Shown: positions 1,300 to 59,595 of the stretch, one piece after another
Layout: each line of letters starts with the position of its first letter
Position numbering within the stretch: position 1 is the first letter of the stretch
DNA from: a virus
Virus record (IMG/VR): IMGVR_UViG_3300017613_001944
Coordinates: 1-64,000 of that record
Direction: 5' to 3' (one strand)
DNA length: 64,000 bases
Position numbers and translations under genes: made by a program
Notes under the pieces: generated by a model
Told to the model about the DNA's origin: nothing
Seen by the model: only the letters and a program-made list of their open reading frames with translations
The model's database searches: none

Positions 1300-1301
1300 T
1301 A

Positions 1302-20450: not shown

Positions 20451-23400
20451 ATGGGACTTCTAACAGGAACAAGACGCGGATTAATAGGCGGAACAAGAAT
20501 AAGACCCTTCGACTTCGACCTGGATGCCACCACCTTCACCGCAGGGATGGCAAAGCGTACTGCGCCAGGCCCCTTCACCGCCGCCCCGATTGTGCAGGGG
20601 ACTTGGGCATCTGAGGTGACGACCAGGGACCAGCTTACCGGTCCCGTTGCAACAGCTGTCCATGATCTTTTTGAGGACACTGGCGACGCCTATCAAGGCA
20701 CTTTTGTTTTTTGGGTAACGCCAGAGTGGGACGGTGATGATGGAAAAGAGCACCGGTTAGTTGGGTTAGGCAATCATGCCTACGTTTTCAAGAGTACTGG
20801 TGGCTACCTTGTCTTTATGTTCAACGATGATGGAGCTTGGTCTAGTACGAGCGTTGATATTTCTGGCTGGTCGGCAGGTGCTACTTATAATGTGGTGGCC
20901 AGATGGGATGTCAAGAACACGCTAGATGGGACTAATTATGCCTGCATTTCCATCAATGATGTTCATTCTTTTGGATACACAACAGCAATAACTCCAGCCG
21001 ACATGGATAGGGTGCTGGTTGGGGATTACTCAAACAACAAGCCACCCAATGCCATCATCGAAGGACTCACCATCTACCGCCGCCCCCTCTTCGACGGCAC
21101 TTACGGCGTGGACGCCAACAGCGGAGTGGATGAGATCAACGCCATCTACGCGGCGGGTGCTGGCGCAGACCCGTGCTTGATAACGGGTTCGTGGGATGCG
21201 GTGTTCTGTCTGCCCACTGACAGCGCGGTAGGCGCGTTGGCGACGGGAACGGGTGAGGCGTGGAGCCACCCGCACAGTTCGGCGGTACTGAACCACTGGA
21301 TAGCGGAGGATGGCTATTACGGTGGTGGGCAGTGGGCGCTTATCGGTAACGCATCCAATACAGGGGTCAACTGCGGAAGCGCGGCGGCTTTGGATGATTT
21401 ACCACTGGCTGACTTTACCGTGGAAGGTTGGTTCCGCTGTGATGGGGGTGGAAGTGGTCACGACGGGGCGCTTGTATGGAAAAGCGGTGGATGGGACACT
21501 GACGGATTTTATCTTAATATCTACAATGGATATATCTCTGTAAGAATCAATTTTAACAATACTGATGTCGTGATGAACACTACCCCGACCTACAACGACA
21601 GTGCTTGGCATCACTGGGCGCTAGACTGGGATCAGGGAACTCTCACTGCCACACTATACGTGGATGGTAAAGAGGAGGCCACCGGCACGGCTGTCGGTGC
21701 GTATCAATCAGATGCAGCCGCAGAGTTCAGGATTGGAGTAGAGGGTGATTGGGGCAATCCGTTCAATGGCGCTATGGGTTGGGTGCGTCTTTCTGATGTT
21801 AGGCGCTACACAGCCGATTTCTTACCTTCCCGCGCATTTCCTGGTGCTGACGGTAACACTGTTGAGGCGTGGAATATAAACGACGGAACCGGCGCAACAG
21901 TGGTTGCACAAGTCACATCGCCGGGGAACGACGGAACCGCTGCCAATCCCGAGTGGGAGCAACAGTGGTGGCCCACCGGCACGCCGGTGATCGCGCCGTG
22001 CTTGAACTTGACAGCAGATTGGGCAAATGTGAATGGTGGATCAGGGGCCAATATTGACGATATGCCAACAGGTGATTTTACGGCAGAGCTTTACTTTTGC
22101 TATACAGATGCTGTTGCCTGGAATGTTATTGCTCAGAAGAAAACGGGGGGACTGGGCTGGTCCCTTAGTTTTGGCAGCAGTAATAAAACGCTCTTTACTA
22201 CTTTTGAATTTAATACAACAGATGCGGCTTCAGAAACAGTGGCTAATACAGTCCAACCTGGTAGATGGTATCACATCGCAGTCACTTTTGATGGCGGCAC
22301 AACCGATACGCCTATAATCTATGTGAACGGAATAAACAGATCGTCTTATTCGACTGCTGGTGTTGGTGTGTACCAAGCTGATGCTGCACAGAACTTTCTT
22401 GCCAGTAATGCAGCGACTAGAAATTTTAGATATGGCTGGCTTCGCCTCTCTGATTCAATTCGATACACTGATACCTTTGTTCCCAACAGCAGGGCCAACC
22501 CGCCAGGAAATGACGCCAATGCACAATTGCTTTGGAATATGGACGACGGAGAAGGCACAACCGTTACAGATACAAGTGGAAACGCTTATCACGGCTCTAT
22601 GTCGGCGGCAACTTCCGAGGGCTGGCTCAACACCCCCGACATGCCCACAGTCGCACCCGGCGCACGCGAATACCAGTGGGGCTACGCCATCGGCAGCGAC
22701 GGCGCTAACGACGGGGTGATCCAGAACTTGGCAGGACTGAGCGCGGGTGATGATTTCGTGGCTCGCATCCCCATTCGGTATGAGGATGTGAACGCGCAGC
22801 CGAGCATCCTTGTGTACGACGAGATTGGCGCGGCTAATATCACCAACTTCCTTGGACCCAAGCTCACAGGCGTTCACAGCGGTGGGAACAACAGCGCAAC
22901 TCTCATCGTCGCGACAGGCGCTTTCCCTCAGAGCCTAATAGGAGCTGCACTATACAACATCACCGATGGATCAAGCACTACCATCACCGCTGTGTCAGGA
23001 GACATGACGACGATCACAGGTGTGTTGTCTGGCGGCACCGACGACGATTGGGACACGAACGATGTGTTTATGATCGTCCCTGATCCGACGTGGGTGTGGT
23101 GCGAGACGTTCACCTGGGAGCTTCCGGCAGGCTGTACGGAGATGAGCGTGCATCTGCGTAACGCGGCGGGGTTGGGCGTGCTGTACTGGAACCAGGCGGA
23201 GGTTCAGGAGAATCTTGTCACTAATCCGTCAATGGAAGATCAGCGGTTGTGGGACATTGATCTTGAAACAGCAGACTTTTCCCAGTTCGACGCCACCACG
23301 GATGTGGACGGAGATATGACAGTGGGAGGCGCTGGCGCATTAGCCGGTTCTTCTAACGGCATCTCGTTCCTTGTTGATGATGCTAACGTCATGTATGCTG

Positions 23401-24782
23401 ACAAGAACCAGACTAACCCAGCGTCTGACGAGTTTAGGCTCCGCTTTTTTGTTGACCCTAACGGGTATACGCAAAACGACACTCAGGAAACAAGGTTGGC
23501 GCAGTGGCTGGATACCGGGGCTGGACTTTACACATGCATTATCGCTCTTAGGGATGATGCAGGAGCGCCGTCCTTCAAGATGCACTATTGCGATGACGCC
23601 GGTTACGGAGGCGGTGACGTTTCGGCAGAAATCACGGATGATCCACACTATGTAGAGTTCCACGTTGTTAGAGCGACAGGCGCTGTCGCCGCTGATGGGA
23701 CGGTACAGTGGTGGATTGATGGAGTGGACCAGGGGACAGTCACAGGTATAGACAACTGGGACCTGTTCGCAAACATGGACGTAGTTCGTGTGGGGGCAGA
23801 AGCAGTTGGGACTGGCGGATCAGGTACGATCTTTATTGACGAGATCACGGCTAACGACACAGGAGAAGAAATTGGACCTACGTACATTCCGATGGGGTGG
23901 AGTAATTCAGGTCTTGGTGCAGGGGATTCGGTTCAAGATAATGCAGAGCCGCATTCTGACTCGTCTTGCGTGGAATTTGTTACCGCACCGAACGCTTCTG
24001 CACTTTATTACAGCGTTAGTTTTGCTCCGGCTCCGGCGTTCGTTGGCATAGGTGGGTGGGCGCGTGAAACCGCAGGCAATATTATGTTGCGCGATGCTAG
24101 TCAACGAGCGATTCAAAACACACTCAGCACTAGAGCAGAGCTTGAAGCCTCTGGCGATGTGTGGCAACACCTTACTGGTGTTGTGAGACAAGATAGTGGC
24201 GGTGGCTGGTTTGCTTTGCGTAGTCATGAAGCCAGCTCCAGTGGTCGTTTTGATGACGTTTATGGTTTCCGTCTCGACGACGTATCCCTCACCGTCACCC
24301 CCGCGTCGGAGGCGAACAGCCTGGAAAGCGGCGGGATTCGGGTGGATGGAACGGATGACTTAGCTCAGCCCCTTTTAGGAATGACGCCAACGCGATTCCG
24401 CATTCGCTGGCGTTGTATTCCAAGGCACGGCGCAGGCGATTTTGAAAAGTTCGGCGGTGATGTATGGATGTATGCTTGGCAGGGTGTGGGCGGCGAATAT
24501 CTCTATGTGGATTGTGTGTCTGACACAACCATTAGGCTCGGTTTTGACGATGGCGGGGGTTTTCACGGCGCAAACTGGGACGCAACGGGAGTTATTGCAG
24601 CCGATACGGAATACCTGTTTGAGATTAGAACTGTTCCTACTCGAATGCAGCTTCTTGTTGATGGTGTTGTAAGGTCTACAATAAATACACCGATAAACTT
24701 TGGTGACTTTCCCGCCAATATCCATTGGGGTGTGGATGCTTGGTCGCTGGGTCAAATTGACGCCGTATTCCTTGAGCCATAG
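20451..24782 (+). CDS. 1443-aa multi-domain LamG fibre-like protein
   Basis: Large beta-rich virion protein. Repeated LamG-like modules are visible: about residues 80-225 (GTFVFWVTPEWDG..., NVVARWDV), 317-458 (FTVEGWFRCDGG, HHWALDWDQG, GWVRLSDVRRYTADFLPS), 537-676 (FTAELYFCYT, YHIAVTFDGG, GWLRLSDSIRYTDTFVP) and a last one at about 1312-1443. Between them lie beta-sandwich, CBM-like segments (about 745-1230, including FVGIGGWARE). Modules 2 and 3 share the GW.RLSD..RYT.FVP end. Such modules bind sugars or proteins. The location between portal and capsid genes suggests a head or neck fibre rather than a classic tail fibre, which is inference. Confidence 0.7.
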   Translation: MGLLTGTRRGLIGGTRIRPFDFDLDATTFTAGMAKRTAPGPFTAAPIVQGTWASEVTTRDQLTGPVATAVHDLFEDTGDAYQGTFVFWVTPEWDGDDGKEHRLVGLGNHAYVFKSTGGYLVFMFNDDGAWSSTSVDISGWSAGATYNVVARWDVKNTLDGTNYACISINDVHSFGYTTAITPADMDRVLVGDYSNNKPPNAIIEGLTIYRRPLFDGTYGVDANSGVDEINAIYAAGAGADPCLITGSWDAVFCLPTDSAVGALATGTGEAWSHPHSSAVLNHWIAEDGYYGGGQWALIGNASNTGVNCGSAAALDDLPLADFTVEGWFRCDGGGSGHDGALVWKSGGWDTDGFYLNIYNGYISVRINFNNTDVVMNTTPTYNDSAWHHWALDWDQGTLTATLYVDGKEEATGTAVGAYQSDAAAEFRIGVEGDWGNPFNGAMGWVRLSDVRRYTADFLPSRAFPGADGNTVEAWNINDGTGATVVAQVTSPGNDGTAANPEWEQQWWPTGTPVIAPCLNLTADWANVNGGSGANIDDMPTGDFTAELYFCYTDAVAWNVIAQKKTGGLGWSLSFGSSNKTLFTTFEFNTTDAASETVANTVQPGRWYHIAVTFDGGTTDTPIIYVNGINRSSYSTAGVGVYQADAAQNFLASNAATRNFRYGWLRLSDSIRYTDTFVPNSRANPPGNDANAQLLWNMDDGEGTTVTDTSGNAYHGSMSAATSEGWLNTPDMPTVAPGAREYQWGYAIGSDGANDGVIQNLAGLSAGDDFVARIPIRYEDVNAQPSILVYDEIGAANITNFLGPKLTGVHSGGNNSATLIVATGAFPQSLIGAALYNITDGSSTTITAVSGDMTTITGVLSGGTDDDWDTNDVFMIVPDPTWVWCETFTWELPAGCTEMSVHLRNAAGLGVLYWNQAEVQENLVTNPSMEDQRLWDIDLETADFSQFDATTDVDGDMTVGGAGALAGSSNGISFLVDDANVMYADKNQTNPASDEFRLRFFVDPNGYTQNDTQETRLAQWLDTGAGLYTCIIALRDDAGAPSFKMHYCDDAGYGGGDVSAEITDDPHYVEFHVVRATGAVAADGTVQWWIDGVDQGTVTGIDNWDLFANMDVVRVGAEAVGTGGSGTIFIDEITANDTGEEIGPTYIPMGWSNSGLGAGDSVQDNAEPHSDSSCVEFVTAPNASALYYSVSFAPAPAFVGIGGWARETAGNIMLRDASQRAIQNTLSTRAELEASGDVWQHLTGVVRQDSGGGWFALRSHEASSSGRFDDVYGFRLDDVSLTVTPASEANSLESGGIRVDGTDDLAQPLLGMTPTRFRIRWRCIPRHGAGDFEKFGGDVWMYAWQGVGGEYLYVDCVSDTTIRLGFDDGGGFHGANWDATGVIAADTEYLFEIRTVPTRMQLLVDGVVRSTINTPINFGDFPANIHWGVDAWSLGQIDAVFLEP

Positions 24783-31379: not shown

Positions 31380-32567
31380 ATGGCTGGGTTACAAATGCCA
31401 AATGAGACCAGGTTTGGCTTGGGCATTCAACAGGGAGGTGGAGGCCAAGGTGTCTCTGACTACTTGAAGATGGCCCTGGGCTATGAGCATGTGGTCTCGA
31501 ACAACGACAACTTTTCATATTTCCCTCTAACCGACGTTGGTATCTCCCCTGTTAAAACTATGGGAACTCTTCCACCGGAGATTGGTGGACGAGCCCTGGC
31601 GACAGGAGCTTATGCAACCGGCACTTGGGCTGCTGGCCCAGTGACAATGATCCCACGCTTGGACAATCGGCTGGGGTGGTTGCTATTGGCTGGAATGGGG
31701 GATGTCAGCACAGTTGCGGATACGAAAGCTGAGAATCTCGCCATCCTTGGCGGGGTACACGGCGCTGATGCTGGTATCAACAGCCACATCTTCCAGTTCA
31801 ACATTGACGATCAGTACTTCGTCCCGTGGCTCACGCTACGTCGTTTGCTTCCGCATTCGACCACGGCGCTGCGCTTGGGCGAGACGTTCCAAGATGGAAA
31901 GATGGCTACCTTCACGCTCACGGCAACCGCCGGAGCGCCCTTGCAAGTAGACGTTGACTTCCTGGCTAGATTGAAGCAGAGTAACTACATCTTTGACTTT
32001 GATCCAAGCTGGGGTACGTTCGTCAACGATGACTTTGACAAGTTCGGCGTTACGAGTTGTGATGGTCACTTTAACGTGGAAGACGTGGCATTCGATGTCA
32101 CTGCGGTTACGATCACGGTAGGTAACATCTTGTTGCCTCCAACCCAATCAATCATCATAGGAACCACACATCCTGTTGACTTCCCGAATCTCAACAGGAC
32201 GATGACGGTGACGGCTTCCTTCCTGGTGAGCACTTGGGACTTCTATGTCAGCACTTTCGCTGGGTCTGCGGTTACGGCTACAGATTCCAATGTTGAGTGT
32301 GCGGTTTACAAGGCAGACATAGATGTGATGTTGGCGAGTCAAGTTAACATCACCGGATCTGAACCGTATCGTATTCGGATACTGTCCAACCCGAACGAGG
32401 ATAATGCGGCTTGGACTGTTCAACCCGTTAGGATCATGCCTAACAGACCAGTGGTTGTTCAGGCTAACTGCACCGTCCTGGCGTTGGAGGGATCAAGTTG
32501 GGAGAACCATCCGGTTTTCATCGTTCTTCAAAACGACAAAGCCGACTACAACCTTCCAACACCATAG
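31380..32567 (+). CDS. major tail tube protein
   Basis: 395 residues. Sits after the neck genes and before chaperones and tape measure, the place of the tube gene in siphoviruses. The core FTLTATAGAPLQVDVDFLAR is typical of the beta-sandwich of tail tube proteins, where a long strand is followed by a G-x-P-L/F. Later TMTVTASFLVS and TGSEPYRIRILSNPN support a second beta domain, an Ig-like or decoration addition. No sheath gene follows, so the tail should be non-contractile. GGAGGG upstream. Confidence 0.75.
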   Translation: MAGLQMPNETRFGLGIQQGGGGQGVSDYLKMALGYEHVVSNNDNFSYFPLTDVGISPVKTMGTLPPEIGGRALATGAYATGTWAAGPVTMIPRLDNRLGWLLLAGMGDVSTVADTKAENLAILGGVHGADAGINSHIFQFNIDDQYFVPWLTLRRLLPHSTTALRLGETFQDGKMATFTLTATAGAPLQVDVDFLARLKQSNYIFDFDPSWGTFVNDDFDKFGVTSCDGHFNVEDVAFDVTAVTITVGNILLPPTQSIIIGTTHPVDFPNLNRTMTVTASFLVSTWDFYVSTFAGSAVTATDSNVECAVYKADIDVMLASQVNITGSEPYRIRILSNPNEDNAAWTVQPVRIMPNRPVVVQANCTVLALEGSSWENHPVFIVLQNDKADYNLPTP

Positions 32568-33376: not shown

Positions 33377-33717
33377 ACCCCCTTCTACAGCATCTCGATG
33401 TACTGGAGAACGCAGTTCTTGAGTGGTTAGAGAGGAGCTTCTATGAGACGGCTGACCACGAGCTCCAGAAAGCTCTACGTAAACAAGCGCTGCTCCCAGT
33501 AAATATGCAAGCCGAAATGCCGGAGGCTTACCGCATCTGGCGTACCTGTCAAAGACATAGTGAGTTGTTCTGGCCTGGTGGTATAGCCAATCAACCGGCA
33601 ACCCTTATGTTAGAGATGGAGGCTTGCGAGAGAGTTTCAAACCAGTTCCAGGATCAAATCAAGCGAATGTACGGCATTATCGAGGATAAAGGCAGTGGCG
33701 CTTCGCCCATCGGATAA
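33328..33717 (+). CDS. second tail chaperone-like protein (gpT position)
   Basis: About 129 residues if started at the GTG at 33328 (a TTG at 33325 is just before it); in the -1 frame relative to the 161-residue protein. Helix-rich (LLQHLDVLENAVLEWLERSFYET, DHELQKALRKQALL, MLEMEACERVSNQFQDQIKRMYG). The upstream frame is open back to 33313, so the product may be made only by slippage from the upstream gene. No canonical slippery heptamer is visible. The next gene starts inside its last 23 bases. Confidence 0.5.
   Translation: MVEPREIGGGSEDGGVNPLLQHLDVLENAVLEWLERSFYETADHELQKALRKQALLPVNMQAEMPEAYRIWRTCQRHSELFWPGGIANQPATLMLEMEACERVSNQFQDQIKRMYGIIEDKGSGASPIG
33367..33382 (+). promoter_or_regulatory. 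short hairpin across the stop codon of the chaperone-like gene
   Basis: GGGGG (33367-33371), loop AGTAAA (33372-33377), CCCCC (33378-33382). The stem straddles the TAA at 33374-33376, where the -1 frame continues. Could influence slippage or coupling; a chance structure is possible. Confidence 0.4.
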
Positions 33718-36700
33718 CCCAGGGAGAGCTCTGCAAGACAGGGCAGAACAACGCGCTCAACAGCTTATGCGTGAGCGGCGTGGTTGGTCTTATTCTGCTG
33801 CACTCAACTTTGCTATGAATGAGTTGACGTATCAGCAGCAGCATGTCGTCCTGGATGTTGAGACAACGGGTGTAAAGAAGGGCGAGAACGAGCTCATCCA
33901 GATTGGTGCCAGGAAGTTTGGTCCTGGTGGAAAACCCGGAGAGACCTATCAAACCTTTGTTGATCCAGGTGGTCCAATTCCCCAGGACATCACTAATCTA
34001 ACCGGCATCAGCACCCAGATGGTAATGGGTGCTCCCTCTCCACAACAGGCAGTCTCAGAACTGTCTCAGTTTGTAGGCAATCTCCCCGTCGTTGGTCACA
34101 ATGTTGGCTTTGACATTGGCTTCCTGGGGATGCACGGCTTTGAAGCATCAACAGCAGCAGACACTCTAGCTGCATCCAGAGCCGCTATGCCACAACGTCG
34201 CAGCCACTCTCTTGCCAACATCGCCGCAGAGCAGGGGTGGGGAATACAACAGCACGAGGCCATGGCTGATGTTGGCATGACCTCCTTACTTCATAGTCAG
34301 CTAGCAACAATGTATCAAGGAGGTGTTCCTCCACCGAGTGGACCACCTCCACCTGCAAACATCTCCCGCTCCATGGGACCCACGCAAAGGGCGTTGCCCC
34401 CAGCAGTGCACGGCGCTGCTATGCAGTTGGGGATAGACGCACAGCAGGCTTCTGAGATCGTCAGCTCGGCTGGTGGTGGATCTATCCGCCAGCAGATAGA
34501 AGCCGTACAACAGTTTGTATACAACAAGATAGGCAAACCCGCCCCCTTTGGCGGTAGTGCAGATCCCATGCAGGCTCTCTCCCCCACACAGTGGGTGCAA
34601 ACCACAGAGAGTGGGCGTGCGATGACACGCACCATGACACCCTTGCCATCATCCTTTGATCCAGCTAAAGCGCAGGAGACATGGGACCCAGGGCAGATAT
34701 CCTATCCTGGGAACAAGATGCAACTTGATCTTGAGCGCAGTCTTGGTGCTTCGATATGGCCTGTTCGAGGTGGGGCGATTCAGACGGGACTAGAAAAGCC
34801 TGAACAATTCCCCAAGCGAATTAAGCAAGCAATCTCGAACTATCAGCAGATTTATCTCAAGGACATGGAGATAGAGGAGGCTCCGTGGTTGACAGGGCCA
34901 ACCTCTCAAGCTCCCGAGAAGGGGCAGACTCTTCGCACTGCTGTGGTGTTTGGCGGCTTTGCTCCCGAGGGCATGTCCTACATTAAGCAGGATCTGGGCT
35001 CCGCCGGGGACTTCAAGTATCACAAGCTCCCTATTCCAGCAGGGGTGGTGCCAGAGGATATAGCTCCTGTCGGAACTGCATTTACTAGATCTCAGGGGGC
35101 ACAGCTATTCAAGGGGCACACCGGCATCAAGTTTGGTGACTGGGAAGAGCAGCATGTTCAGGACATTAGATTTGAGCCTGGAGCCATCAACCAGCCAGGC
35201 GCTCTACACGTCAGAATGGGAAGGGGCATTCCTCTAACACGCGGTATCGGCTACTCGATGCACTCTGGTAAGGAGTTGCTGGTGGGTGCCGATGTCGAGA
35301 AGATGACTGGCAGAAGCGACATCCAGGTGGTGAAAGCTGGTCCCAGGGATGTGCTTGGTCTGGCATTCCAGGCATACAGCTCCATGGCTCCAGCCGAATA
35401 CGAGAGGGTAACTGGCAAGCCGCGCCCTGCCACTTGGCAACAAGCTGCCGCAGATGAAGAGTCTATGGCAGCTTTTGATCGGATGGCTAGTGACAACGCC
35501 ACGATGCTCCAGTTCCCCGACCAAATTATCTCTAAAGCCAACCTTGAGGCTTTTAAAGAGGGCAATAGGATAGTTCCCGGCACATTAGAAGAGCTCGGCG
35601 GCGAGAGATACCGTGCCACCCTGGAGTATCCAGCGGTGGTAATGGATCTCTTTACCCAGTTCACCCGTGGGGCCTATGAGCATGGTCAACCATTTGTTGG
35701 GGAGGGTACTCTCCGGCGAATAAGAGACGCCAACCCTCAACTCTACAACCAGATGATGGGTGAGGGAAAGCAGCAGCGTGAGTGGAGACAGCAAAACGTC
35801 CAGGCATACACTGCCAGCAGAGGAATACCGGGATTAAGGCAAGCTCCAGACCAATACACTATGGCAAGGGATCTTCCCTGGACTAACATTACACAAGACG
35901 CTACTCGCAGAGCCATGAAGATCAGCGGTGTTGATCGCCCCGAGGATATCCCTTACGGCGCAGAACAAGCAGCACTGTTACAACGAATCCCTCTAACTCA
36001 CGAGGGTCGAGCCACAGGAGCTCTCGCCTTCGAGAGCCGTGGCAAGGATTATTTCTTCCCCCATCCCAGGCATGTCCCCGCCGTACCAGGGACCTTGGGC
36101 TATGAAGAACGAAGCGCCTATAGGCACCGCTACGCAAATCTACTCCAGGAACAAATGAGGTATCAAGAGACTGGTGAGGAGGAGCCGTATCGCTCTGCCC
36201 TTGCTGGTACAATGCTAGCTAGTCACCGTCTTGTAAGCTCCGGCGAATTTCTAAAGCGCACGCTGGGCGTAGAGCCACGAAGTCTATATGGTGGCATGGG
36301 TGCTGCATCTTTCGCCAATCTTCCCGAAGAGCTGTATATGCCAACAGAGGCTGCTGCAAGAGCCAGTGGTATCAAGGTTGGCACTCCCGAATATGAAAGA
36401 TTCCAGCGCAATTTCGAGTCAGGCGGTTATCAGTTTGCTGCCTCTGTATTCCGGGAGCCTACCACTGATACGGCGGGAGTGCTGGTGAAGGGACTGGTCA
36501 AGTGGATAGGCACACATCCAAACGAAACTCTTCGGGACGCACGTATACCAGTCTTGTCTGCGGAGATGGGCCAGACACTAAGAGGCGACTTTGACAAGGA
36601 CGCCTACACCATTGCCAGGGAGTGGGGCATTGATCTAGCAGATGCCCAAACTCTCAAGATACAAATGCGCGACTTCAATCTTTCAAATGCCCAGGCTGAC

Positions 36701-39700
36701 AAGGCAGGACAGCGAGACAAGCAATTCAAGGAGATTGGAAAGTTTGGCACTATTAGATCCATGCTGGATAGAATAGGCCAGAGAACAGCAATACCTCTTA
36801 GAGATGCTATTGGGCAGATGAGCGAGAGGTCCAGTGTCGGCAGACAGATGGGTTATGGCTACAATATTCAGCAAGAGCTAGAAATGTCGGCGGTAGATCC
36901 AGAATCCAAGGCAGCAGCAGAGCTATTGGGCTCCAATATGTATATGCAGGGCCAGGACTTTGAGAAGTGGAGCAAGGAGCTTGAAAGTCTGGTAGTGCAT
37001 CGCAGTGCCAACCTTGCAACAGGCGGTGCATATAATATCATTACTGGTGAGCCGTCACGCATCCCATTCGGCAGGTCAGAGACGGGAATGATGCTCTCTG
37101 CCATTAGGATGGGATCAAATCTCCCAGGCTTGAGCTCCAGAGAGAAGGCAGCAATGATGACCCCTGCTGGTAATGAGGGGCTTCGTGCAGCAGTGGAGGG
37201 AGCTCTTGAGTCTGGTGACATTGACTCAATAGCACACTTATTGGAGGGTGCTCTTCCCGGCGGGGCACAGGAATGGGGAGAGAATACATTATTAGGGCGA
37301 CAAGTGTTAGGTCGCGCAGCAGATTTAGGACAAAGGAAAGGTGCCAAAGGAATCCGTGAATCACTAGCAGAAATCGGCAGATCATTAAGGTCTGTCGGTG
37401 CAGTAAGACGTTCTTATCCATTTAAGGGACGTGTGGAGGCGCTTAGAGAAAGAATGCGTCTAGGCGGAGAGCCTCCATCACCCGTTATGCAGGCTCTCTT
37501 GCCTGGCAGCGAAGCGCCTCTGGATGTCTCAGGTATGACACCAGAGGAGCAAGATGCTATGGCTATAAAAGCAGCCTCAGCCTCCTCTGGTAGGGGGCAA
37601 GGGCAAACACCAGAAGAAACAAGACGATTCGCTGATCGACAAATGGAGTGGCAAGCTGAGATAGCAAGAGGTACCGCTGACCCAGCAAACTATCCCGATC
37701 TATTCCCAACGAAGGAAGAGTACGCGAGATACGCGGCTCAAAGAGCCGGGGCACCCCCACGCCCACCCGATCCGGCACGTTCTGCCGGTTCAGGCGGTAT
37801 GGGAGGTGGAAGATTACCGCCTGTCACCACCGCTACCCCAGATCCGTCAGATCCACGTCAGTCTGGTGAAGGTGATCCCAAGAAGTGGGTTGTCAACCTG
37901 AACTATGGTGCTGTGAAGATAGGAGACTTTAACCGAGCAATTGAGACAATGACCAGCCGACTTGGTGATTGGTCTGAAGAAATGGACCCGATTGTCACCG
38001 GCGGTAAGCAGTTCACAAAAGCCCAGCAGCAGATGACTGAGAAGTTAATCTCTGCACGCAGAACTCTCGAAAGAGCAGATAGAGGCGAGGGGGATTTTAC
38101 GTCTGCACAGATACAAGCTGCCCAGCAAGCTCTTGCCACGCCTGGTATGGGTGTTCTTGGGCAAGCAGAAGAGCAGATCACCAATCGCTGGTGGGGCCAG
38201 AGAATGGATCAGGGCGCAAGAGGGCGCGTAGGTCGCTTCTATGAGCGCTTTGGTTCACGAGGAATGGGAGACGCCTCACCAACAGAGCGCATGGAGCGCG
38301 GATTCAGAAGTGTATTCTCTGGATGGGAGCTCATGCGCTTACAGCGTATGTGGGGTCTGACTGGTGGACGAGCGTTTGGCGCTATGCCAGTTGCCGCAGA
38401 AGCACAGCAAGGTGCTATGCAAGCCGCCATGGTTGGACAGCCTATGGGCCAGTTTGGGATGGGCGATATCACTGCTGGCTTACTTGAGACGGGTGCAAGA
38501 CAACAACAGTTCCAGGTTCAGATGGGCACTGCTACTAACCAGGCTTGGGGCTGGATGCCTAGAGCTATGGCAAACACAGGACTGGGCACAGCGGCTGGCA
38601 TTGGATTACCTGCACTTGGCATGGGTGCTGCTGCTGGATGGGGAGCTGGGGTACTTGGACTTGGCGCTCTTTCTACTCCCCTTGGTTTAGGGGTTGCAGC
38701 AGGAGCGGGTATATATGGCGGGATCAACTATCTAAGAAATAGGCCAGAAGAGGACATAGATGTTGCGGCAGCGGAGCAACGAAAGCGAGATCTGACGCGA
38801 CAAATAGCGACACCTCAAGGGCTGGAGCGCTTCAGGCCACCGGGATGGATGGGTGGTGCCTTTGGCCCAAGCGTTGAAGGCTACTCTGAAGAACAAGCAG
38901 AGAGAGGCGAAACGATCCTTAGCGGAGAGCTAACTGGTCTTTCTGTTCCACAACGGATGAAGGCCATTCAGGAAGCATATCAATATGCTCCGCAATGGAT
39001 GGAGCCAACGGCTGCACAGGGCCTTGCTCAACAGTGGATGCGCTATGATCCCGAAGCAACTAACATCAGAGAAATCTACGAGGACCCACGCTTCGAGGCA
39101 ATGGCTGCACGCGGCACTGATGTTGAAACCTACGCTAAAATGGCAGAGGGTTTTGGTATGCGCCCAAGCCAAGCCTTTGATATTTACAGTATCATGGCTG
39201 GCGTGTCAGAGCAAGAGTTTGGTCCAGTTTCTGAGACTGCTCAATCGTGGATGGGACTTGGTAGAGCTGCTGGCATGAAGCCAGAAGACATCTTAAGTCG
39301 CTCCAAGCCAAGAACACAGACTCCTGGGGATACCCGGTGGGGTGATGTATATAATCCTGAGCGACTGGCGGGACCAAGATTGGAGCGATTGTCAGGCGAT
39401 CCGATGGTACAGCAAAGAGCGCAAGCTATCGAAGGTATGATGATACAGCGGCGCACAGCAGGGATGGAGATCCCGTTTGAACCCCCCACCACTGAAGCGG
39501 CGGTGATGGATATCTACCAAGGTGGGCAGATGCAGCTAGGCACTGCTGGATTGGGGCTTGCCAATCAGTTTATGGGAATGGGAGCTACTCCGCTAACTGC
39601 CGGGGCTGGTGCTGGTGCCGCAGAGCGTTACGGTATGATGGGGGTACGAGGTGTCAGTGGCTTTATGGGCGGGGACAGGAACATAATGGCTATGCTTGGT

Positions 39701-40942
39701 CAGGCCAATGTTCAAGGTCCATTCTCCCAGGTGAATGTCGGTGGTGGAATGCAATATAACGCAGGTCCACTGCGACAGGGCATCGAGGACGCCCTGGCAC
39801 AAGTCATGTCCCCAGAGGGAGCACAGAGTATAAGGGGAATGATGGGGGATATTCGCCCCTTAGTGGAACCAGAGACTGGCATGCAGATGGGTACCACTCG
39901 CATGTACGAGGGTTTCGCTGATGAATACCAGTTGCCTAGAGGCACAGATCAAGGAGCGTTTGATAAATATACTCAAATGCTGGTTACTGGTGGTAGACGT
40001 GACGTTGAGCGGGAAAAGGCCAGTCTCCAAGGTGACTTCCGAACATTCCAGCAAGATCAGCAAAGAACACAGCTAGAGTTACGCGGTGTATCTCAGTTCG
40101 GTGGGACCTTTGAGTCGCCCTACGGTGGTACATTAGATACCAAGGGCACCTTTGAGCTCACGCGGGAGATGAGAAATCTCTCCAGGACCTTCCAGGACTA
40201 TAACCAAGAGTACAATCAGGAGTCTCGACAACTGGGCTACAACCAGTTCCAAGAGAATTGGCAAGTACGAGCTCAGAGAATGCCTATCCAATTCCAGAGG
40301 CAGCGTGAAGACCTGGCTTTCCAGGGCAACCAGGCGGCTATGGGCTTCGGTTGGCAGATGGAAGACATCCAGGAGAACCTGCGCTTTGCCACTGGCAGGG
40401 ACAGGCGACGGCTATTACGCCAGCAAGAGCGTGCAGCCATCAGCTTTGGGATGGGACAGGGCCAGCGAGAAACACAGGCTGGACGAATAGACCAGAATGA
40501 GCGCTGGGCTGCTGAAGATCTTGAGCGACAGAAGCGACATTTTGAAGAGCGCTTCCGCTTACAGGATGATTACCAGGAAAGGTACCGTCAGTACACAGAA
40601 GAGCGTAGGGCAATAGAGGATCAGCTCCAAGAGATCCAGGAATTCAATGCCCAGTACAACTTAGAGGCTTCGACAGAGCAGCTAGACAAGTCCATCGCTC
40701 TCAACGAGCAGCTAAACGGGATACAAGAAGCATACACGGCAATGAACCAGGATCTCGAGAAGCAGGTTGGACTACAGCAACAGATCGTCAAGAACATCGA
40801 GTACTTGATAGCTCAATTTGCCGATGATGGTAGAGCAACCAACGCATTCAACGGTTTCATTTCACACATCGAGAACTCCTTCTCTCGGGAATCCGCCGAG
40901 ATAGGGCTGATGATCGACAGAATTTACGGCAACGATAGCTAG
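33695..40942 (+). CDS. 2415-aa tape measure protein with N-terminal exonuclease and RNAP-like region
   Basis: GTG start 33695 with GAGGA upstream. Residues 50-200 form a DnaQ-like DEDDh 3'-5' exonuclease with VVLDVETTG (Asp54, Glu56), VGHNVGFD (Asp140), and HEAMAD (His187, Asp192) all present. Residues 920-969 contain REPT and, 45 residues later, GDFDKD (Asp965, Asp967, Asp969), resembling the second double-psi barrel of two-barrel RNA polymerases. A proline- and glycine-rich linker ends near 1390. The last 1000 residues have the tape measure look: hydrophobic glycine/alanine helices (about 1625-1685), then a long glutamine-rich coiled coil at 2110-2400. It fixes tail length and is injected in such phages. 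The activity of the N-terminal parts is inferred. Confidence 0.85.
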   Translation: MALRPSDNPGRALQDRAEQRAQQLMRERRGWSYSAALNFAMNELTYQQQHVVLDVETTGVKKGENELIQIGARKFGPGGKPGETYQTFVDPGGPIPQDITNLTGISTQMVMGAPSPQQAVSELSQFVGNLPVVGHNVGFDIGFLGMHGFEASTAADTLAASRAAMPQRRSHSLANIAAEQGWGIQQHEAMADVGMTSLLHSQLATMYQGGVPPPSGPPPPANISRSMGPTQRALPPAVHGAAMQLGIDAQQASEIVSSAGGGSIRQQIEAVQQFVYNKIGKPAPFGGSADPMQALSPTQWVQTTESGRAMTRTMTPLPSSFDPAKAQETWDPGQISYPGNKMQLDLERSLGASIWPVRGGAIQTGLEKPEQFPKRIKQAISNYQQIYLKDMEIEEAPWLTGPTSQAPEKGQTLRTAVVFGGFAPEGMSYIKQDLGSAGDFKYHKLPIPAGVVPEDIAPVGTAFTRSQGAQLFKGHTGIKFGDWEEQHVQDIRFEPGAINQPGALHVRMGRGIPLTRGIGYSMHSGKELLVGADVEKMTGRSDIQVVKAGPRDVLGLAFQAYSSMAPAEYERVTGKPRPATWQQAAADEESMAAFDRMASDNATMLQFPDQIISKANLEAFKEGNRIVPGTLEELGGERYRATLEYPAVVMDLFTQFTRGAYEHGQPFVGEGTLRRIRDANPQLYNQMMGEGKQQREWRQQNVQAYTASRGIPGLRQAPDQYTMARDLPWTNITQDATRRAMKISGVDRPEDIPYGAEQAALLQRIPLTHEGRATGALAFESRGKDYFFPHPRHVPAVPGTLGYEERSAYRHRYANLLQEQMRYQETGEEEPYRSALAGTMLASHRLVSSGEFLKRTLGVEPRSLYGGMGAASFANLPEELYMPTEAAARASGIKVGTPEYERFQRNFESGGYQFAASVFREPTTDTAGVLVKGLVKWIGTHPNETLRDARIPVLSAEMGQTLRGDFDKDAYTIAREWGIDLADAQTLKIQMRDFNLSNAQADKAGQRDKQFKEIGKFGTIRSMLDRIGQRTAIPLRDAIGQMSERSSVGRQMGYGYNIQQELEMSAVDPESKAAAELLGSNMYMQGQDFEKWSKELESLVVHRSANLATGGAYNIITGEPSRIPFGRSETGMMLSAIRMGSNLPGLSSREKAAMMTPAGNEGLRAAVEGALESGDIDSIAHLLEGALPGGAQEWGENTLLGRQVLGRAADLGQRKGAKGIRESLAEIGRSLRSVGAVRRSYPFKGRVEALRERMRLGGEPPSPVMQALLPGSEAPLDVSGMTPEEQDAMAIKAASASSGRGQGQTPEETRRFADRQMEWQAEIARGTADPANYPDLFPTKEEYARYAAQRAGAPPRPPDPARSAGSGGMGGGRLPPVTTATPDPSDPRQSGEGDPKKWVVNLNYGAVKIGDFNRAIETMTSRLGDWSEEMDPIVTGGKQFTKAQQQMTEKLISARRTLERADRGEGDFTSAQIQAAQQALATPGMGVLGQAEEQITNRWWGQRMDQGARGRVGRFYERFGSRGMGDASPTERMERGFRSVFSGWELMRLQRMWGLTGGRAFGAMPVAAEAQQGAMQAAMVGQPMGQFGMGDITAGLLETGARQQQFQVQMGTATNQAWGWMPRAMANTGLGTAAGIGLPALGMGAAAGWGAGVLGLGALSTPLGLGVAAGAGIYGGINYLRNRPEEDIDVAAAEQRKRDLTRQIATPQGLERFRPPGWMGGAFGPSVEGYSEEQAERGETILSGELTGLSVPQRMKAIQEAYQYAPQWMEPTAAQGLAQQWMRYDPEATNIREIYEDPRFEAMAARGTDVETYAKMAEGFGMRPSQAFDIYSIMAGVSEQEFGPVSETAQSWMGLGRAAGMKPEDILSRSKPRTQTPGDTRWGDVYNPERLAGPRLERLSGDPMVQQRAQAIEGMMIQRRTAGMEIPFEPPTTEAAVMDIYQGGQMQLGTAGLGLANQFMGMGATPLTAGAGAGAAERYGMMGVRGVSGFMGGDRNIMAMLGQANVQGPFSQVNVGGGMQYNAGPLRQGIEDALAQVMSPEGAQSIRGMMGDIRPLVEPETGMQMGTTRMYEGFADEYQLPRGTDQGAFDKYTQMLVTGGRRDVEREKASLQGDFRTFQQDQQRTQLELRGVSQFGGTFESPYGGTLDTKGTFELTREMRNLSRTFQDYNQEYNQESRQLGYNQFQENWQVRAQRMPIQFQRQREDLAFQGNQAAMGFGWQMEDIQENLRFATGRDRRRLLRQQERAAISFGMGQGQRETQAGRIDQNERWAAEDLERQKRHFEERFRLQDDYQERYRQYTEERRAIEDQLQEIQEFNAQYNLEASTEQLDKSIALNEQLNGIQEAYTAMNQDLEKQVGLQQQIVKNIEYLIAQFADDGRATNAFNGFISHIENSFSRESAEIGLMIDRIYGNDS

Positions 40943-50135: not shown

Positions 50136-50365
50136 CTGATCTGGTAGCCGCCATAAAGGAGGAGTACCCCGAAGGATTTACATCTCGGGAGTACTGCACT
50201 GCTCGTGGGTGGGATTACGACATTAGCTACCGTGCCGCTAAAGCAAGAACAGAGCTACGAAAGCTCTGTTCTAAGGGAAAGATAGAAGCGGTGCATGTTA
50301 CTCGTGAGGATATTCATGGGCGAGAGTATCCAGCCCTTGGTTTTCGGATTCTAGGTCCTTTCTAA
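50111..50365 (+). CDS. small HTH-like protein, last plus-strand gene
   Basis: 84 residues with GAGGA upstream. FTEQELADLVAAIKEEYPEGFTSREYCTARGWDYDISYRAAKARTELRKLCSKGKIEAVHV is a likely winged-helix layout: helices, then a basic recognition helix and beta wing. It would bind DNA. Its last 68 bases overlap the 3' end of recA on the other strand, which is unusual. Confidence 0.55.
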   Translation: MEFTEQELADLVAAIKEEYPEGFTSREYCTARGWDYDISYRAAKARTELRKLCSKGKIEAVHVTREDIHGREYPALGFRILGPF

Positions 50366-51338
50366 TCAGGTTTATCTTTTCGGGGTGTTCCTCTATATGA
50401 TTCATCACACCCCCCTCACTCTCCCATCCCTTTAAATGGAAACCAATCTCTTCGTCGGGACGCCAATCGTACCACGCCCCCCTCTGCTCTATGACTGTGC
50501 CCTTGGCGGTTTCCATCACGTCAAAGTTTACGTCTAGTCCCCTGTCAAACTTGATTCTATAATTGGCCTGTAGGTATGGGGGTCCTGCTTGGTTCTTCTG
50601 GAAGTAGGCTCTGGCGTCAATGCCAATGGTGTTTTTGCCCCTCTTTACTCTACCCACCTGCTGTAGTTTCATTATCATGATGTTATCCTGCATGACGACC
50701 CTTCCGCCGGGGATGGTCTCGGGGTTGGCTCCAGGCATCGACGCAAACTTATAGCGCATCTGATTGGTCATTAGGAACACGCAGTTACTAGCTCCCAGTA
50801 TGGACTTCAGCGCCTTCATGTTGGGGCTCAGGAGCTTGGAAAGGTGGGCAGGAAAGTTGTCACCGGCTGAGTTAGCATCAAGCACATTGGCGGGGACCAG
50901 GTGATAGATGCTATCCAGTATCACTGCATCCACTACGGGGACCATTCCCCTGATGACATCCAGGGCCTGGGGGCCTGTCTCTGGTTGAGCGATATAAAGC
51001 TCATCGGGGTTCACATCGTACTGAGAGATGCAGGTACGTATCCAGTCCTCTGATCCCTTCTTCTCCATATCCACAAATAGGGGTGTCCCTCCGCCACGGA
51101 TAACACTGGCGGCGAAGCATTGGGCCAGTGTGGTCTTACCGCCATTCTCTTTGCCCCAGTACATGACTGAATGTTTTCGCGGAAACCCCCCTATTCCCGT
51201 CGCCTGGTCAATAGCCATACATCCCGATGAGATCACATCGAACTTCATGGGCTTGTCTTTTAGCTTGAGGATAATGTCACCCCCAAACTTTTTACGGAGT
51301 GTCTTTAGCTGGGCCTTTACCTTGCTTTGATCCGCCAT
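50298..51338 (-). CDS. recA: RecA-type recombinase
   Basis: 346 residues, close to bacterial RecA. SGCMAIDQATGIGGFPRKHSVMY leads to Walker A WGKENGGKTT (Lys68). FVDMEKKG, VVDAVILDSI (Walker B), and FLMTNQMRYKF (L2 region) follow, with a C-terminal region that has no obvious extra domain. It would catalyse strand exchange in replication and repair. The 5' end overlaps the ATPase gene upstream by 47 bp. It reads out towards the plus-strand late genes and ends convergently with them. Confidence 0.9.
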   Translation of the reverse strand: MADQSKVKAQLKTLRKKFGGDIILKLKDKPMKFDVISSGCMAIDQATGIGGFPRKHSVMYWGKENGGKTTLAQCFAASVIRGGGTPLFVDMEKKGSEDWIRTCISQYDVNPDELYIAQPETGPQALDVIRGMVPVVDAVILDSIYHLVPANVLDANSAGDNFPAHLSKLLSPNMKALKSILGASNCVFLMTNQMRYKFASMPGANPETIPGGRVVMQDNIMIMKLQQVGRVKRGKNTIGIDARAYFQKNQAGPPYLQANYRIKFDRGLDVNFDVMETAKGTVIEQRGAWYDWRPDEEIGFHLKGWESEGGVMNHIEEHPEKINLIRKDLESENQGLDTLAHEYPHE

Positions 51339-52089
51339 CTTCTTCCTTTCCGCATACCAGATCAGCGATTGTGCTGTCAGGCCATCCCGTGTCTGAGGTG
51401 ATGTCGATTAACATTGACTCTGGGTCCCCCAGACTTTTCAATAGGTTGTGTCTATCCTTCGCCAGATAGCGTATGTTCCCTCTGGTTAGAGGTTGCTTTA
51501 CTACATAGCGCTTTGCCTTTTCCTCCGCAATGACGTGTAGAGTGAGAGAGAACCATCCTGGTAGCTCATCCCTTAAAGCACCCTTCACTGCCAGCATAGC
51601 ATCCTTCACTCTGGCGTCATCGTCTCCCCTCACCTTTACGTGCCCCACCACGACTACTGTGATAGGCAGTCCCGACCACTCGAGAACGATAGGGTACATG
51701 GTGTTTAGCAGCGTACCCCAGTCTCGCATCTGCATGGTGGTCTTGGTGCCCAGGATCTTAGTCTCGGCGGCACGCTGTATTTGATCTATGGGGTCAATAA
51801 CCAGTGTTCTCACAGGTCCAGTCTCTAGCTGGTAGGCCCCATTCTCAAACTTGCTGCTCTTGAGCCTCTTGATAGCAGCGATGGTGTCCTGGACGGTGTT
51901 GGACGATAGTGGTAACACGATTCGCGGGGTTGGTACTGGTCTGGCAGTGGTAGCGCCGTCACTCTCAATGTCGATGAACAGTGGATCGGGGAATGTACCG
52001 GCAAGACGCGTCTTGCCTGTACCCGGTTCTCCTAAGATGAGCACTCTCGCAGGGTCTCGCTCTCCCGATTCAGTTAATACGATCTTCAT
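51292..52089 (-). CDS. Sak4-like RecA/AAA ATPase
   Basis: 265 residues. Walker A ILGEPGTGKTRL (19-30, Lys26), FIDIESDG, RTLVIDPIDQ (Walker B) and VVVVGHVKVRGDDDAR match the AAA_24/Sak4 type of single-strand annealing or recombination ATPases. Its ATG has GGAGGT upstream and a strong promoter precedes it. Overlapping recA suggests joint control and a recombination partnership. Confidence 0.75.
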   Translation of the reverse strand: MKIVLTESGERDPARVLILGEPGTGKTRLAGTFPDPLFIDIESDGATTARPVPTPRIVLPLSSNTVQDTIAAIKRLKSSKFENGAYQLETGPVRTLVIDPIDQIQRAAETKILGTKTTMQMRDWGTLLNTMYPIVLEWSGLPITVVVVGHVKVRGDDDARVKDAMLAVKGALRDELPGWFSLTLHVIAEEKAKRYVVKQPLTRGNIRYLAKDRHNLLKSLGDPESMLIDITSDTGWPDSTIADLVCGKEEDGGSKQGKGPAKDTP

Positions 52090-52092
52090 TTA

Positions 52093-52139
52093 ACACCTCC
52101 CATACTTTTGTACAGTATAGCATGGGGTATGGGAGGTGT
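52093..52139. repeat. 13-bp perfect inverted repeat centred on the -10 box
   Basis: ACACCTCCCATAC (52093-52105) and its exact complement GTATGGGAGGTGT (52127-52139), 21 bp apart. The centre is at 52116, inside the -10 hexamer. One arm covers the ribosome site and the other the -35 edge. A paired operator or looped regulatory site is likely. Confidence 0.8.
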
Positions 52140-52142
52140 CAA
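52114..52142 (-). promoter_or_regulatory. sigma-70 promoter for the Sak4-like/recA operon
   Basis: On the minus strand TTGACA (52142-52137), 17 bp, TATACT (52119-52114). Near-perfect consensus. Transcription would start near 52107, giving a leader of about 18 bases with GGGAGGTG as ribosome site. The strongest match in the window. Confidence 0.85.
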
Positions 52143-52144
52143 GT

Positions 52145-52324
52145 TTATGTTCCAAACACTGCCATGATTATGATGAACACCAACAGTGCAGCAACCGCCG
52201 ATCCCACCATGGCCTTGAGAAAGTCTCCCTTGGCAAGGTAGTACGGCGCTCCCCTGGGGTATTCGTCACGCCAGCAGTCCCCAGCATAATCATAATCTAC
52301 ATCATCGTAACCATTGTCACTCAT
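52145..52324 (-). CDS. small single-pass membrane protein, 59 aa
   Basis: MSDNGYDDVDYDYAGDCWRD... acidic and tyrosine-rich N-terminus, then one hydrophobic helix (KAMVGSAVAALLVFIIIMAVFG, about 37-58). GGAGGCAAA precedes the ATG. It overlaps the upstream gene (ATGA). No family recognised. Confidence 0.6.
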   Translation of the reverse strand: MSDNGYDDVDYDYAGDCWRDEYPRGAPYYLAKGDFLKAMVGSAVAALLVFIIIMAVFGT

Positions 52325-52521
52325 TTTGCCTCCTCCATTGCAGTATTCAGCTTTGCTTGTAGCTCTCGTGCTTCTCCGAATGCTTGTTGCATTATCTCTA
52401 GTGTGTATTCAGACTGGATGTCGAGCTCTTGCTTGGCCCCGTACATCTCACGAAACCATCTTGCCCAGAACAAAAGATACAAGCCAATCACGACAAGCGA
52501 AAACACTACCTTCAGCACCAT
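52321..52521 (-). CDS. small membrane-anchored coiled-coil protein
   Basis: 66 residues. One hydrophobic N-terminal helix (LKVVFSLVVIGLYLLFWA, about 3-20) and a helical rest (QSEYTLEIMQQAFGEARELQAKLNTAMEEA). ATG and stop are both overlapped with neighbours. Role unknown; could be a lysis or membrane-interaction factor. Confidence 0.6.
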   Translation of the reverse strand: MVLKVVFSLVVIGLYLLFWARWFREMYGAKQELDIQSEYTLEIMQQAFGEARELQAKLNTAMEEAK

Positions 52522-52522
52522 T

Positions 52523-53164
52523 TCACAATCCCATCAGGTACTCTAGCCAGTACCCTTCATCTAGTAAGAACCTCACTCTACCTGTGTCTATCCCTGCCCA
52601 TGTCTTGGGGACAGAGCCTTTTGCCCACTTGGGCCTACTCCCCTGCCAGCGGGTCACGATCAATGCACGGATGTCTCTAGCTCGAGATGTCCCTGGTTGA
52701 TCTATCCACTCTTCATCAGGCGGGAGGGTAGCGCCATGCAGGTGTGCACCCAGTTCAAGATATTTGAATGAAGTACTCATGCGTGTATGCTTTGGATCGA
52801 GTAACAACCCTTTTGGTACATGTAGCATCATCTCTTCCCAAAGACTCTTGTACCACCTACCAACTCTGCTGGCAGTTATTCTTTGGGCGACCATGAATAA
52901 ACACTTCTGTTTCGTCCCCCTGGTTTGTCCTTCTTGCATGTGGCAAGTCGCACATACAGGGCAGCAGTTTTCTGGAACGAAGATGAGATGCTGTTTTCCC
53001 TTCGGGACTGCACTCCTCTTGACAAGGTATTCGTGGAGGTGCCACTCCCCGGCGCGAACGCCACAGATGGGACAGTCAACACCTGACCCCTTTCCAGTAT
53101 CCCACCTGCTATAGAGGTGTTGTACCTCTTGCTTTAATGCGTTTCTTCTATCGGCAACATCCAT
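52523..53164 (-). CDS. HNH endonuclease-like protein
   Basis: Start ATG 53164 (a GTG at 53179 would add five residues with a weaker ribosome site). CPICG...GEWHLHEYLVKRS and LIFVPENCCPVCATCH give a zinc-supported HNH arrangement with the histidine pair and two CxxC motifs. Around 213 residues. The C-terminal 120 residues are a separate helical, tryptophan-rich part. Could be a homing or packaging-related endonuclease, but no conserved active-site H-N-H triad can be fully confirmed. Confidence 0.6.
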   Translation of the reverse strand: MDVADRRNALKQEVQHLYSRWDTGKGSGVDCPICGVRAGEWHLHEYLVKRSAVPKGKQHLIFVPENCCPVCATCHMQEGQTRGTKQKCLFMVAQRITASRVGRWYKSLWEEMMLHVPKGLLLDPKHTRMSTSFKYLELGAHLHGATLPPDEEWIDQPGTSRARDIRALIVTRWQGSRPKWAKGSVPKTWAGIDTGRVRFLLDEGYWLEYLMGL

Positions 53165-53337
53165 ATCGTTCTTCCACACTCTGGGCAGAGATCAACTGCT
53201 AGAAAACCAAGCAAGTTAATCCCCACTCCAGAGTTCCTATCTCCACAGGTACAGAATCCATAGAATAGCTGTAGGTTGAGATCCTGTGCTTCTTCCTTCG
53301 CCGTTGCGAGTGCCTCATCAAAGACACTCTTCGGCAT
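53134..53337 (-). CDS. zinc-ribbon protein, about 67 aa
   Basis: From ATG 53337, whose A is shared with the upstream TAA (TAATG); a longer ATG start at 53379 overlaps the neighbour by 43 bases. FCTCGDRNSG and LCPECGRTIW are two CxxC pairs of a zinc ribbon. A leucine-rich helix lies before them. Overlaps the HNH gene start. Confidence 0.55.
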   Translation of the reverse strand: MPKSVFDEALATAKEEAQDLNLQLFYGFCTCGDRNSGVGINLLGFLAVDLCPECGRTIWMLPIEETH

Positions 53338-53675
53338 TACAGGTAACTCAACTGGGTCCCGAACGTCTCTGTCAGCCAAGATTCAAGCTCCTTTCCATTT
53401 TCCTTCGCCCACTTCTCAAGATAGTGTAGCTCGGAATCGGTGAGTTGATTGTAGCTCTGGAGGCTCTCTTTATTTAGAGCGTCCTTTGCTAGCTTGATCC
53501 TAGCATACCGGAATCCGCCGCCAAATTCAAGGGGTGGGGAGAGTCTAGCCGCAGCCCTCTCTAAGGCATCGTCTATGCTGCCCACACGCCAGCCTCTCCC
53601 TCCCTTGGTGAGTTCGTAACCTAACTCCTTCTTGGCGTCTCTACGAATCAGTCTTGCTCTTTGATCGAGCTCCAT
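53337..53675 (-). CDS. hypothetical protein, 112 aa
   Basis: Charged and helical, with RRDAKKELGYELTKGGRGW and YLEKWAKENGKELESWL. No family recognised. Coupled to both neighbours by overlaps. Confidence 0.5.
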   Translation of the reverse strand: MELDQRARLIRRDAKKELGYELTKGGRGWRVGSIDDALERAAARLSPPLEFGGGFRYARIKLAKDALNKESLQSYNQLTDSELHYLEKWAKENGKELESWLTETFGTQLSYL

Positions 53676-53964
53676 CCTTCTCCTTTGCTGGCGGGTAGCG
53701 CCACGTCTCTATAGCACCTCCGCAACTTGGGCAATCGTGCCCTTCCTCCAGCCCACCACGCCCAACCGTGCTATTCATCATGCCCATGCACCATGGGCAG
53801 ATGGGAGGGGACAGTAGCTTGATTACGTCTTGGTCTAGCATAACCTCTACTGCTGGTATCCCCTCGGGGAGTAGCTGCCTACCCTCTATCGCTCTGATGG
53901 TGATCCCTGCATTCTGTATCGCTTCATAGTCTTCCAGGCTCATACGAAATTCTATTATCTGCAT
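53641..53964 (-). CDS. zinc-ribbon protein, 107 aa
   Basis: N-terminal alpha-beta part (IIEFRMSLEDYEAIQNAGI), then CPWCMGMM and CPSCGGAI, two CxxC pairs 19 residues apart, followed by a basic, unstructured tail. Unassigned. Confidence 0.55.
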   Translation of the reverse strand: MQIIEFRMSLEDYEAIQNAGITIRAIEGRQLLPEGIPAVEVMLDQDVIKLLSPPICPWCMGMMNSTVGRGGLEEGHDCPSCGGAIETWRYPPAKEKDGARSKSKTDS

Positions 53965-53973
53965 ATCATTCTC

Positions 53974-54789
53974 CTAGTAATCTTCTCCTTCTATGAATGG
54001 ACCTTCGCCCAGTTGAGGCCAGCATTTATGGAACCATTGGCAAGCAACTGCCTTTCCCTTCAGGGCCTTCACGTTCTTTGTGCAAGCAAAGTTTTCTGTA
54101 AATGGGCTATCGTATGTGGGCGGCAGCTCTGTCTCCCCCCAATGCTCTTCGTAGAGGGACATCTCTGCTGGCAGTGTTGTGTCCAGTGACCCTGATCTTA
54201 TCCTTCGGTTAACCTGCCCCTCATACCCGATACCGTCATCAGTCTCGAACACTTCAAACTGGGCGAAGTTGTTCCAGCAGCGATAGTATAGGACCACCGG
54301 CAGCATCCCGCCATGGGTCTCGTAGTACAGCTTCTGGTAGGCCAGCGCAGATAGAACGTGGTGCTTGTAGGGTAATCTCTTGGCGTGGAAATTCCAGGGG
54401 GCAGTACCCTTGTGCTCGATGATGACACCACTGGGGAAGTCTTCGCAGGTCTCGACCACGAAGTCAATTCTCCCCGACCAGATGTCATTCCTCACACTTA
54501 CCTGCTCGTGCAGATTGTCTTTGAAGATCCAGCGGAAGGTCTCTTGACTGTTGAGCTCGAGCTCGGTGCCCATACGCATCACCTCGATGACGTAATCATC
54601 GAACGGATTGGTCACCTTGTTACCCGTCCTTACCCTGAAAGCGTCCAGGTATGCCTTCCTCACGCACATCCCTAGACTGGATACGAATAGCCGGGGGTCA
54701 GTGCCGTCGTGCTCAATCTCCCATGCCTCGTCCCTCAGTCTTGACGCATCCTTGTACTCCTTTACCATCAAGTCATGTAATTGAATCAT
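53974..54789 (-). CDS. Cas4/RecB-like PD-(D/E)XK nuclease
   Basis: 271 residues. SSLGMCVRKAYLD (Cys42), WSGRIDFVVE (Asp109), VIIEHKG (Glu125, Lys127), then C-terminal Cys236, Cys250 and Cys256. This is the Cas4/AddB order: an N-terminal Cys, PD-(D/E)XK centre and C-terminal Cys triplet that bind an iron-sulfur cluster. The C-terminal spacing (C-x13-C-x5-C) is wider than the usual C-x2-C-x5-C. Such enzymes resect DNA ends for recombination, matching the neighbouring recA. Confidence 0.8.
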   Translation of the reverse strand: MIQLHDLMVKEYKDASRLRDEAWEIEHDGTDPRLFVSSLGMCVRKAYLDAFRVRTGNKVTNPFDDYVIEVMRMGTELELNSQETFRWIFKDNLHEQVSVRNDIWSGRIDFVVETCEDFPSGVIIEHKGTAPWNFHAKRLPYKHHVLSALAYQKLYYETHGGMLPVVLYYRCWNNFAQFEVFETDDGIGYEGQVNRRIRSGSLDTTLPAEMSLYEEHWGETELPPTYDSPFTENFACTKNVKALKGKAVACQWFHKCWPQLGEGPFIEGEDY

Positions 54790-55213: not shown

Positions 55214-55222
55214 CATTCCTCC

Positions 55223-59557: not shown

Positions 59558-59595
59558 ATTTCCTTTCACCCAACCCCCGCCGGAGGCGACAACGG

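Follow-up and report, generated by a model that had tools for sequence, protein, structure and literature searches.

A probable diverged two-barrel polymerase core within the tail tape measure protein of an uncultivated phage

The N-terminal half of the tail tape measure protein encoded in the DNA analysed here (the window, 64,000 nucleotides, positions 1 to 64,000 of IMG/VR record IMGVR_UViG_3300017613_001944) is probably a single-chain polymerase of the two-barrel type that has diverged strongly and is best read as a virion RNA polymerase (RNAP), with D965, D967 and D969 as predicted Mg2+ ligands. The three aspartates belong to a DxDxD motif that is kept in register in distant relatives of the tape protein, and the region around it aligns at the profile level with the beta-prime-like double-psi-beta-barrel (DPBB-A) of known polymerases.

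Results

The tape measure protein and its metal-binding motif

An open reading frame of 2,415 codons on the plus strand (33695..40942) lies downstream of a tail tube gene (31380-32567; Phage_tube_2, E=9e-8) and upstream of large distal-tail ORFs. It was assigned as the tape measure protein because of this position and its size, and it also carries the C-terminus of the tape family described below. The RNAP-like core, recognised by DPBB-A homology only, and the tape are thus parts of one ORF (33695-40942). The core common to relatives spans residues 320-1130 (34652..37084, plus strand), as delimited by matches to the closest relative and by family alignments. Apart from a DEDDh exonuclease domain near its N-terminus, the protein gave no match above noise in Pfam, PHROGs or PDB sequences, and no sequence match to an RNAP was found in these libraries or in the phages that bear P23-45 gp96.

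The translation bears out the motif pair given in the preliminary description, with REPT at residues 920-923 (36452..36463, plus strand), the counterpart of the beta-prime R-x-P(T) in family alignments, and GDFDKD at residues 964-969 (36584-36601, plus strand). The spacing from R920 to D965 is 45 residues, compared with 39 in the RNAP of Cellulophaga phage phi14:2 and 35 between RAPT and ADFDGD in E. coli beta-prime, a measured value that agrees with the earlier figure of about 35. DFDKD (36587..36601, plus strand) is the sole DxDxD in the whole tape protein. The motif alone is weak evidence, because a DxDxD is expected by chance in about 1-3% of 300-residue stretches of such a protein and because GDFDKDAY, searched as a DNA pattern against 2.9 million viral contigs, matched once, in an unrelated protein. 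Relatives of the tape protein were therefore sought.

A family of giant tapes in uncultivated phages

Several searches returned nothing: protein-pattern scans with tape, tube and terminase gave zero matches, the core found no relative among genome contigs, and tblastn against phages gave no match for tape, terminase, capsid or portal, nor for the window core, gp96 phages included. The capsid protein led to one relative at 64% identity (L005/G001), whose tape has its C-terminus in common with the window tape and carries GRDADGD mid-protein. A degenerate pattern drawn from this C-terminus, WQxED....xR[FY]x[ST]GR (40235..40642, plus strand), matched 15 viral contigs in IMG/VR in large tail ORFs homologous to the window tape, where by our own estimate well under one match was expected by chance. 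None of these 15 contigs turned up in phage GenBank searches with the window tape.

The closest relative, G012/L024, matches the window protein at 38% identity over residues 211-585 (E=2e-57) and at 35% identity over 605-1240 (E=3e-78); its residues 161-1249 align end to end with window residues 245-1239 at 31% identity. Ten full-length relative tapes were collected by C-terminus or capsid linkage, and the motif played no part in their selection.

A contig assigned to the bin of NC10 bacterium CSP1-5 (L032, LDXR01000011.1; L052) bears a tape that matches that of IMG/VR contig L022/L026 in length and motif sequence (GDADGD), which may be a hint to the host or a binning artefact. Among 95 NC10 genomes searched with the core, only this already known contig gave a match.

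Conservation of the three aspartates

DxDxD is in register in 7 of the 10 relative tapes (8 of 11 full-length tapes with the window protein), and it is this retention in distant relatives that turns the motif into strong evidence. The in-register sequences are DADGD in L008 and L026, DYDKD in L024, DWDVD in L025, DFDLD in L027 and L030, and DKDDD in L018, while the tapes of L010, L028 and L029 lack a DxDxD at the corresponding place. An eight-row MAFFT alignment of the tapes with the motif has only 11 invariant columns, among them D965, D967, D969 and P922, and a seven-row alignment has 13, which are ten Gly, Pro or Ala columns and the same three Asp. The P922 of REPT is nearly invariant across the family, but several of the relatives do not have the Arg of R-x-P.

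The earlier observation that all three metal-binding Asp are kept, with the Gly between them changed to Lys, holds for the window protein, and the Asp are invariant in 8/8 aligned tapes. The motif Gly is replaced elsewhere in the family as well, by K, L, V or D. Since crAss-like RNAPs, which read DFDID, DFDVD or DYDID, have Ile or Val at this position, the Lys does not disqualify the motif. The suggestion that the region might be a remnant now appears unlikely, as L024 aligns with it end to end at 31% identity and the Asp are kept in far more distant relatives.

An alternative is a two-barrel domain that is catalytically dead or has been repurposed as a structural part of the tail, such as a channel plug or a DNA-end binder; the many swapped domains borne by tail tapes, the loss of the R-x-P Arg in some relatives and the replacement of the motif Gly would fit such a role. 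We consider this quite improbable, since a purely structural role would not need the three Asp, the sole invariant residues besides Gly, Pro or Ala, and crAss-like RNAPs also do without that Gly.

Profile homology to DPBB-A

The barrel predicted to hold the motif covers residues 874-976 (36314..36622, plus strand), which hhalign places in register on a DPBB-A profile. The comparison set comprised P23-45 gp96 and gp64 with their relatives, seven crAss-like RNAPs and three beta-prime sequences. Against gp96, the top match of the family profile was in register, with a score of 36.9 and a pairwise E-value of 0.003, and the top match always fell in the same register when gp96, crAss-like, beta-prime and gp64 profiles were used separately, while the top match of a reversed family profile fell outside it. 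Against the combined DPBB-A profile (gp96/gp64, crAss-like and beta-prime), the family scored 41.0 with a pairwise E-value of 1e-4, and 39.2 without inserts.

Because these E-values are pairwise and come from few sequences, we relied on shuffles. The best of 150 column shuffles scored 17.3, and 150 shuffles that kept nine motif columns in place had a mean of 21.5 and a maximum of 27.4. With five motif columns masked, the top match kept its register, at the R-x-P strand, with a score of 21.0, which none of 100 masked shuffles reached (maximum 18.9). The proposal of a beta-prime-like DPBB-A is therefore supported both by conservation in relatives and by a profile-profile alignment that reaches well beyond the motif. 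Our confidence in the polymerase reading is kept short of high because column shuffles miss some properties of real proteins.

These controls bear most directly on the possibility that the region is no polymerase at all and that DxDxD arose by chance or convergence in a metal-binding or tape domain of unrelated origin. Consistent with this are the lack of a direct match in any curated library, the low confidence of structure prediction and the failure of profiles to detect the other barrel; hmmsearch of the family against the PDB also gave chance matches only. Yet homology extends beyond the motif in both the motif-kept and the motif-masked controls, and the register is the same against four RNAP groups, so that this explanation is already strained by the shuffle controls and has in our view only a slight chance of being right.

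The candidate first barrel and the predicted fold

The probable place of a candidate DPBB-B-like barrel is at about residues 411-540 (34925..35314, plus strand), with a conserved (L)PEGQ-type turn at 422-427. This PEG-type motif, with variants, occurs in all eight tapes that have DxDxD, and a comparable motif was not seen at that place in the three tapes that do not. Seven of these eight tapes have 543-633 residues between this motif (near 422) and the Asp; the remaining one has 789. By eye, K526 resembles the Lys of the G-x-K of beta and is a candidate catalytic-type Lys. Residues 411-540 gave no match to a gp96/gp64 DPBB-B profile, and a match to the flap region of beta was not significant, as 3 of 150 shuffles exceeded it.

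The two barrels would be separated by a helix-rich connector, residues 541-873 (35315..36313, plus strand), with helices in a low-confidence model; judged by position only, it sits where single-chain RNAPs have their clamp-connector element. A helical region follows the metal motif in the family alignment (36623..37084, plus strand) and contains a conserved GxGYN (1053-1057); we infer that it may correspond to the bridge helix and trigger-loop region.

Structure prediction, proposed in the preliminary description as a check on the barrel fold, gave models of low confidence. AlphaFold models from one sequence and from five sequences, a set without the closest relative L024, had a mean pLDDT of 38, but in the five-sequence model residues 874-976 reached a local pLDDT of 50-70 with a strand and helix order compatible with a DPBB. 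Foldseek with the low-confidence model returned nothing significant, and its matches were meaningless.

The exonuclease and other tape-borne enzymes

Residues 51-196 (33845..34282, plus strand) form a DEDDh 3'-5' exonuclease domain (Pfam RNase_T, E=6e-23; PHROG 192, E=5e-34; PolC/DnaQ in the PDB) with intact motifs LDVETTG, NVGFDIGFL and HEAMADVGM. No such domain was detected by Pfam in the tapes of L008, L010, L018, L024, L025, L026, L027 and L030. The L008 tape instead carries a Cas4-like PD-(D/E)XK nuclease (9092-9688, minus strand; PHROG E=3e-8), and weak matches point to an M78-like metalloprotease domain in the L024 tape and to SLOG/DprA-like and JAB-like domains in that of L010. The exonuclease thus looks like an exchangeable passenger, since it was detected only in the window protein and L008 has a PD-(D/E)XK nuclease in its stead, and tape-borne enzymes in this family look like exchangeable injected passengers more generally. 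The N-terminus of the L026 tape (10256-11096, minus strand) also resembles a PD-(D/E)XK nuclease by eye, with no PHROGs match.

An exonuclease in the same chain raises the question of whether the enzyme makes DNA. A two-barrel DNA polymerase, primase or repair polymerase with PolD-like chemistry and DEDDh proofreading could be injected to start replication or to protect the incoming DNA. PolD has both DPBBs in common with two-barrel RNAPs (PMC10770324), and a scan of part of the genes of the record identified RecA and a DnaB-like helicase but no DNA polymerase. Against this stands the detection of the exonuclease in the window protein only and in none of the eight relatives scanned by Pfam. 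Moreover, every two-barrel enzyme that we know to be tape-fused or carried in virions is an RNAP, and we judge a function other than transcription to be rather unlikely. A bolder proposal, which we also regard as unlikely, is a tail-injected, self-editing two-barrel polymerase, for RNA or DNA, whose DEDDh exonuclease would proofread its product and would share a single chain with polymerase and tape. It would be one member of a widespread family, so far overlooked, in which tape-fused polymerases exchange their nucleases.

Discussion

The closest functional parallel to the virion RNAP that we favour is gp96 of Thermus phage P23-45, a tape whose N-terminal part is a flat RNAP that lacks a clamp, is active and transcribes the pre-early genes (PMC10770324). 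Both gp96 (PDB 8H2N/8H2M) and the window protein are giant tapes with the polymerase core towards the N-terminus, the tape gene follows small tail genes in each case, and the profiles match in register. The two proteins have no BLAST-level similarity, and the DxDxD of DPBB-A reads DFDGD at residue 779 in gp96 but DFDKD at 965 here; the connector is much longer in the window protein, which also has the DEDDh exonuclease attached. With gp96 as the query, only Thermus phages and two chance Salmonella matches were obtained. P23-45 has a second, non-virion RNAP, whereas the rest of this 82-kb record showed no further motif of RNAP type. Our best reading is that the window protein works like gp96 but is no BLAST-detectable homologue of it.

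The crAss-like RNAPs offer a second comparison. Like the window protein, gp66 of Cellulophaga phage phi14:2 (PDB 6VR4) is a single chain with an R-x-PT-like element, then D-F-D-x-D with a spacer other than Gly, and a long connector. CrAss-like virions carry RNAP-related cargo, which is proposed to leave the virion in a partly unfolded state (PMC10172136). These RNAPs are separate proteins of short-tailed virions, in contrast to the tape part considered here, and no BLAST similarity was found. Annotations of some crAss-like RNAPs name a different enzyme activity, for example 'exonuclease V' in cr118_1. Cellular beta-prime has the same arrangement of R-x-PT and ADFDGD in DPBB-A and matches the family profile in register over the metal motif; it differs in its spacing (35 as against 45 residues), its multisubunit enzyme and the Gly of its motif.

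The idea of a tail-carried polymerase, raised in the preliminary description, gains support for its DPBB-A part from the profile homology, and the tape as carrier has a precedent in P23-45 gp96 (PMC10770324). By analogy with P23-45, the polymerase, being part of the tape, would travel inside the tail tube and be injected ahead into the cell with the first DNA, where it may transcribe the leading, earliest genes independently of the host RNA polymerase. D965, D967 and D969 would hold the catalytic Mg2+ in the DPBB-A barrel (about 874-976), and the predicted barrel order, B then A, would be that of P23-45 gp96 and the crAss-like RNAPs. A scan for promoter-like repeats, of the kind of the AT-rich motif that precedes pre-early genes in the gp96 group, found no 11-mer shared by at least four non-coding stretches of the record, which may be incomplete.

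In the literature searched, the only tape-fused RNAPs described are those of P23-45 and related Thermus phages. If our reading is true, tape-fused polymerases recur in diverse uncultivated phages without BLAST-level similarity to the Thermus ones, and early transcription that is independent of the host and brought in through a long tail would be a more general strategy. The family would also provide new, very divergent two-barrel enzymes for studies of polymerase evolution and of the tolerance of the DFDGD motif.

The remainder of the phage genome has several recognisable regions. Glycosyltransferase-like, sugar epimerase/dehydrogenase-like and methyltransferase genes are clustered at the left end (112-11145). 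RecA, an AAA_24 ATPase and a DnaB-like helicase are encoded on the minus strand (50298-60957 and L004). A protein of 1,443 residues with laminin-G/concanavalin-like domains (20451-24782) is likely to be a receptor-binding or fibre protein.
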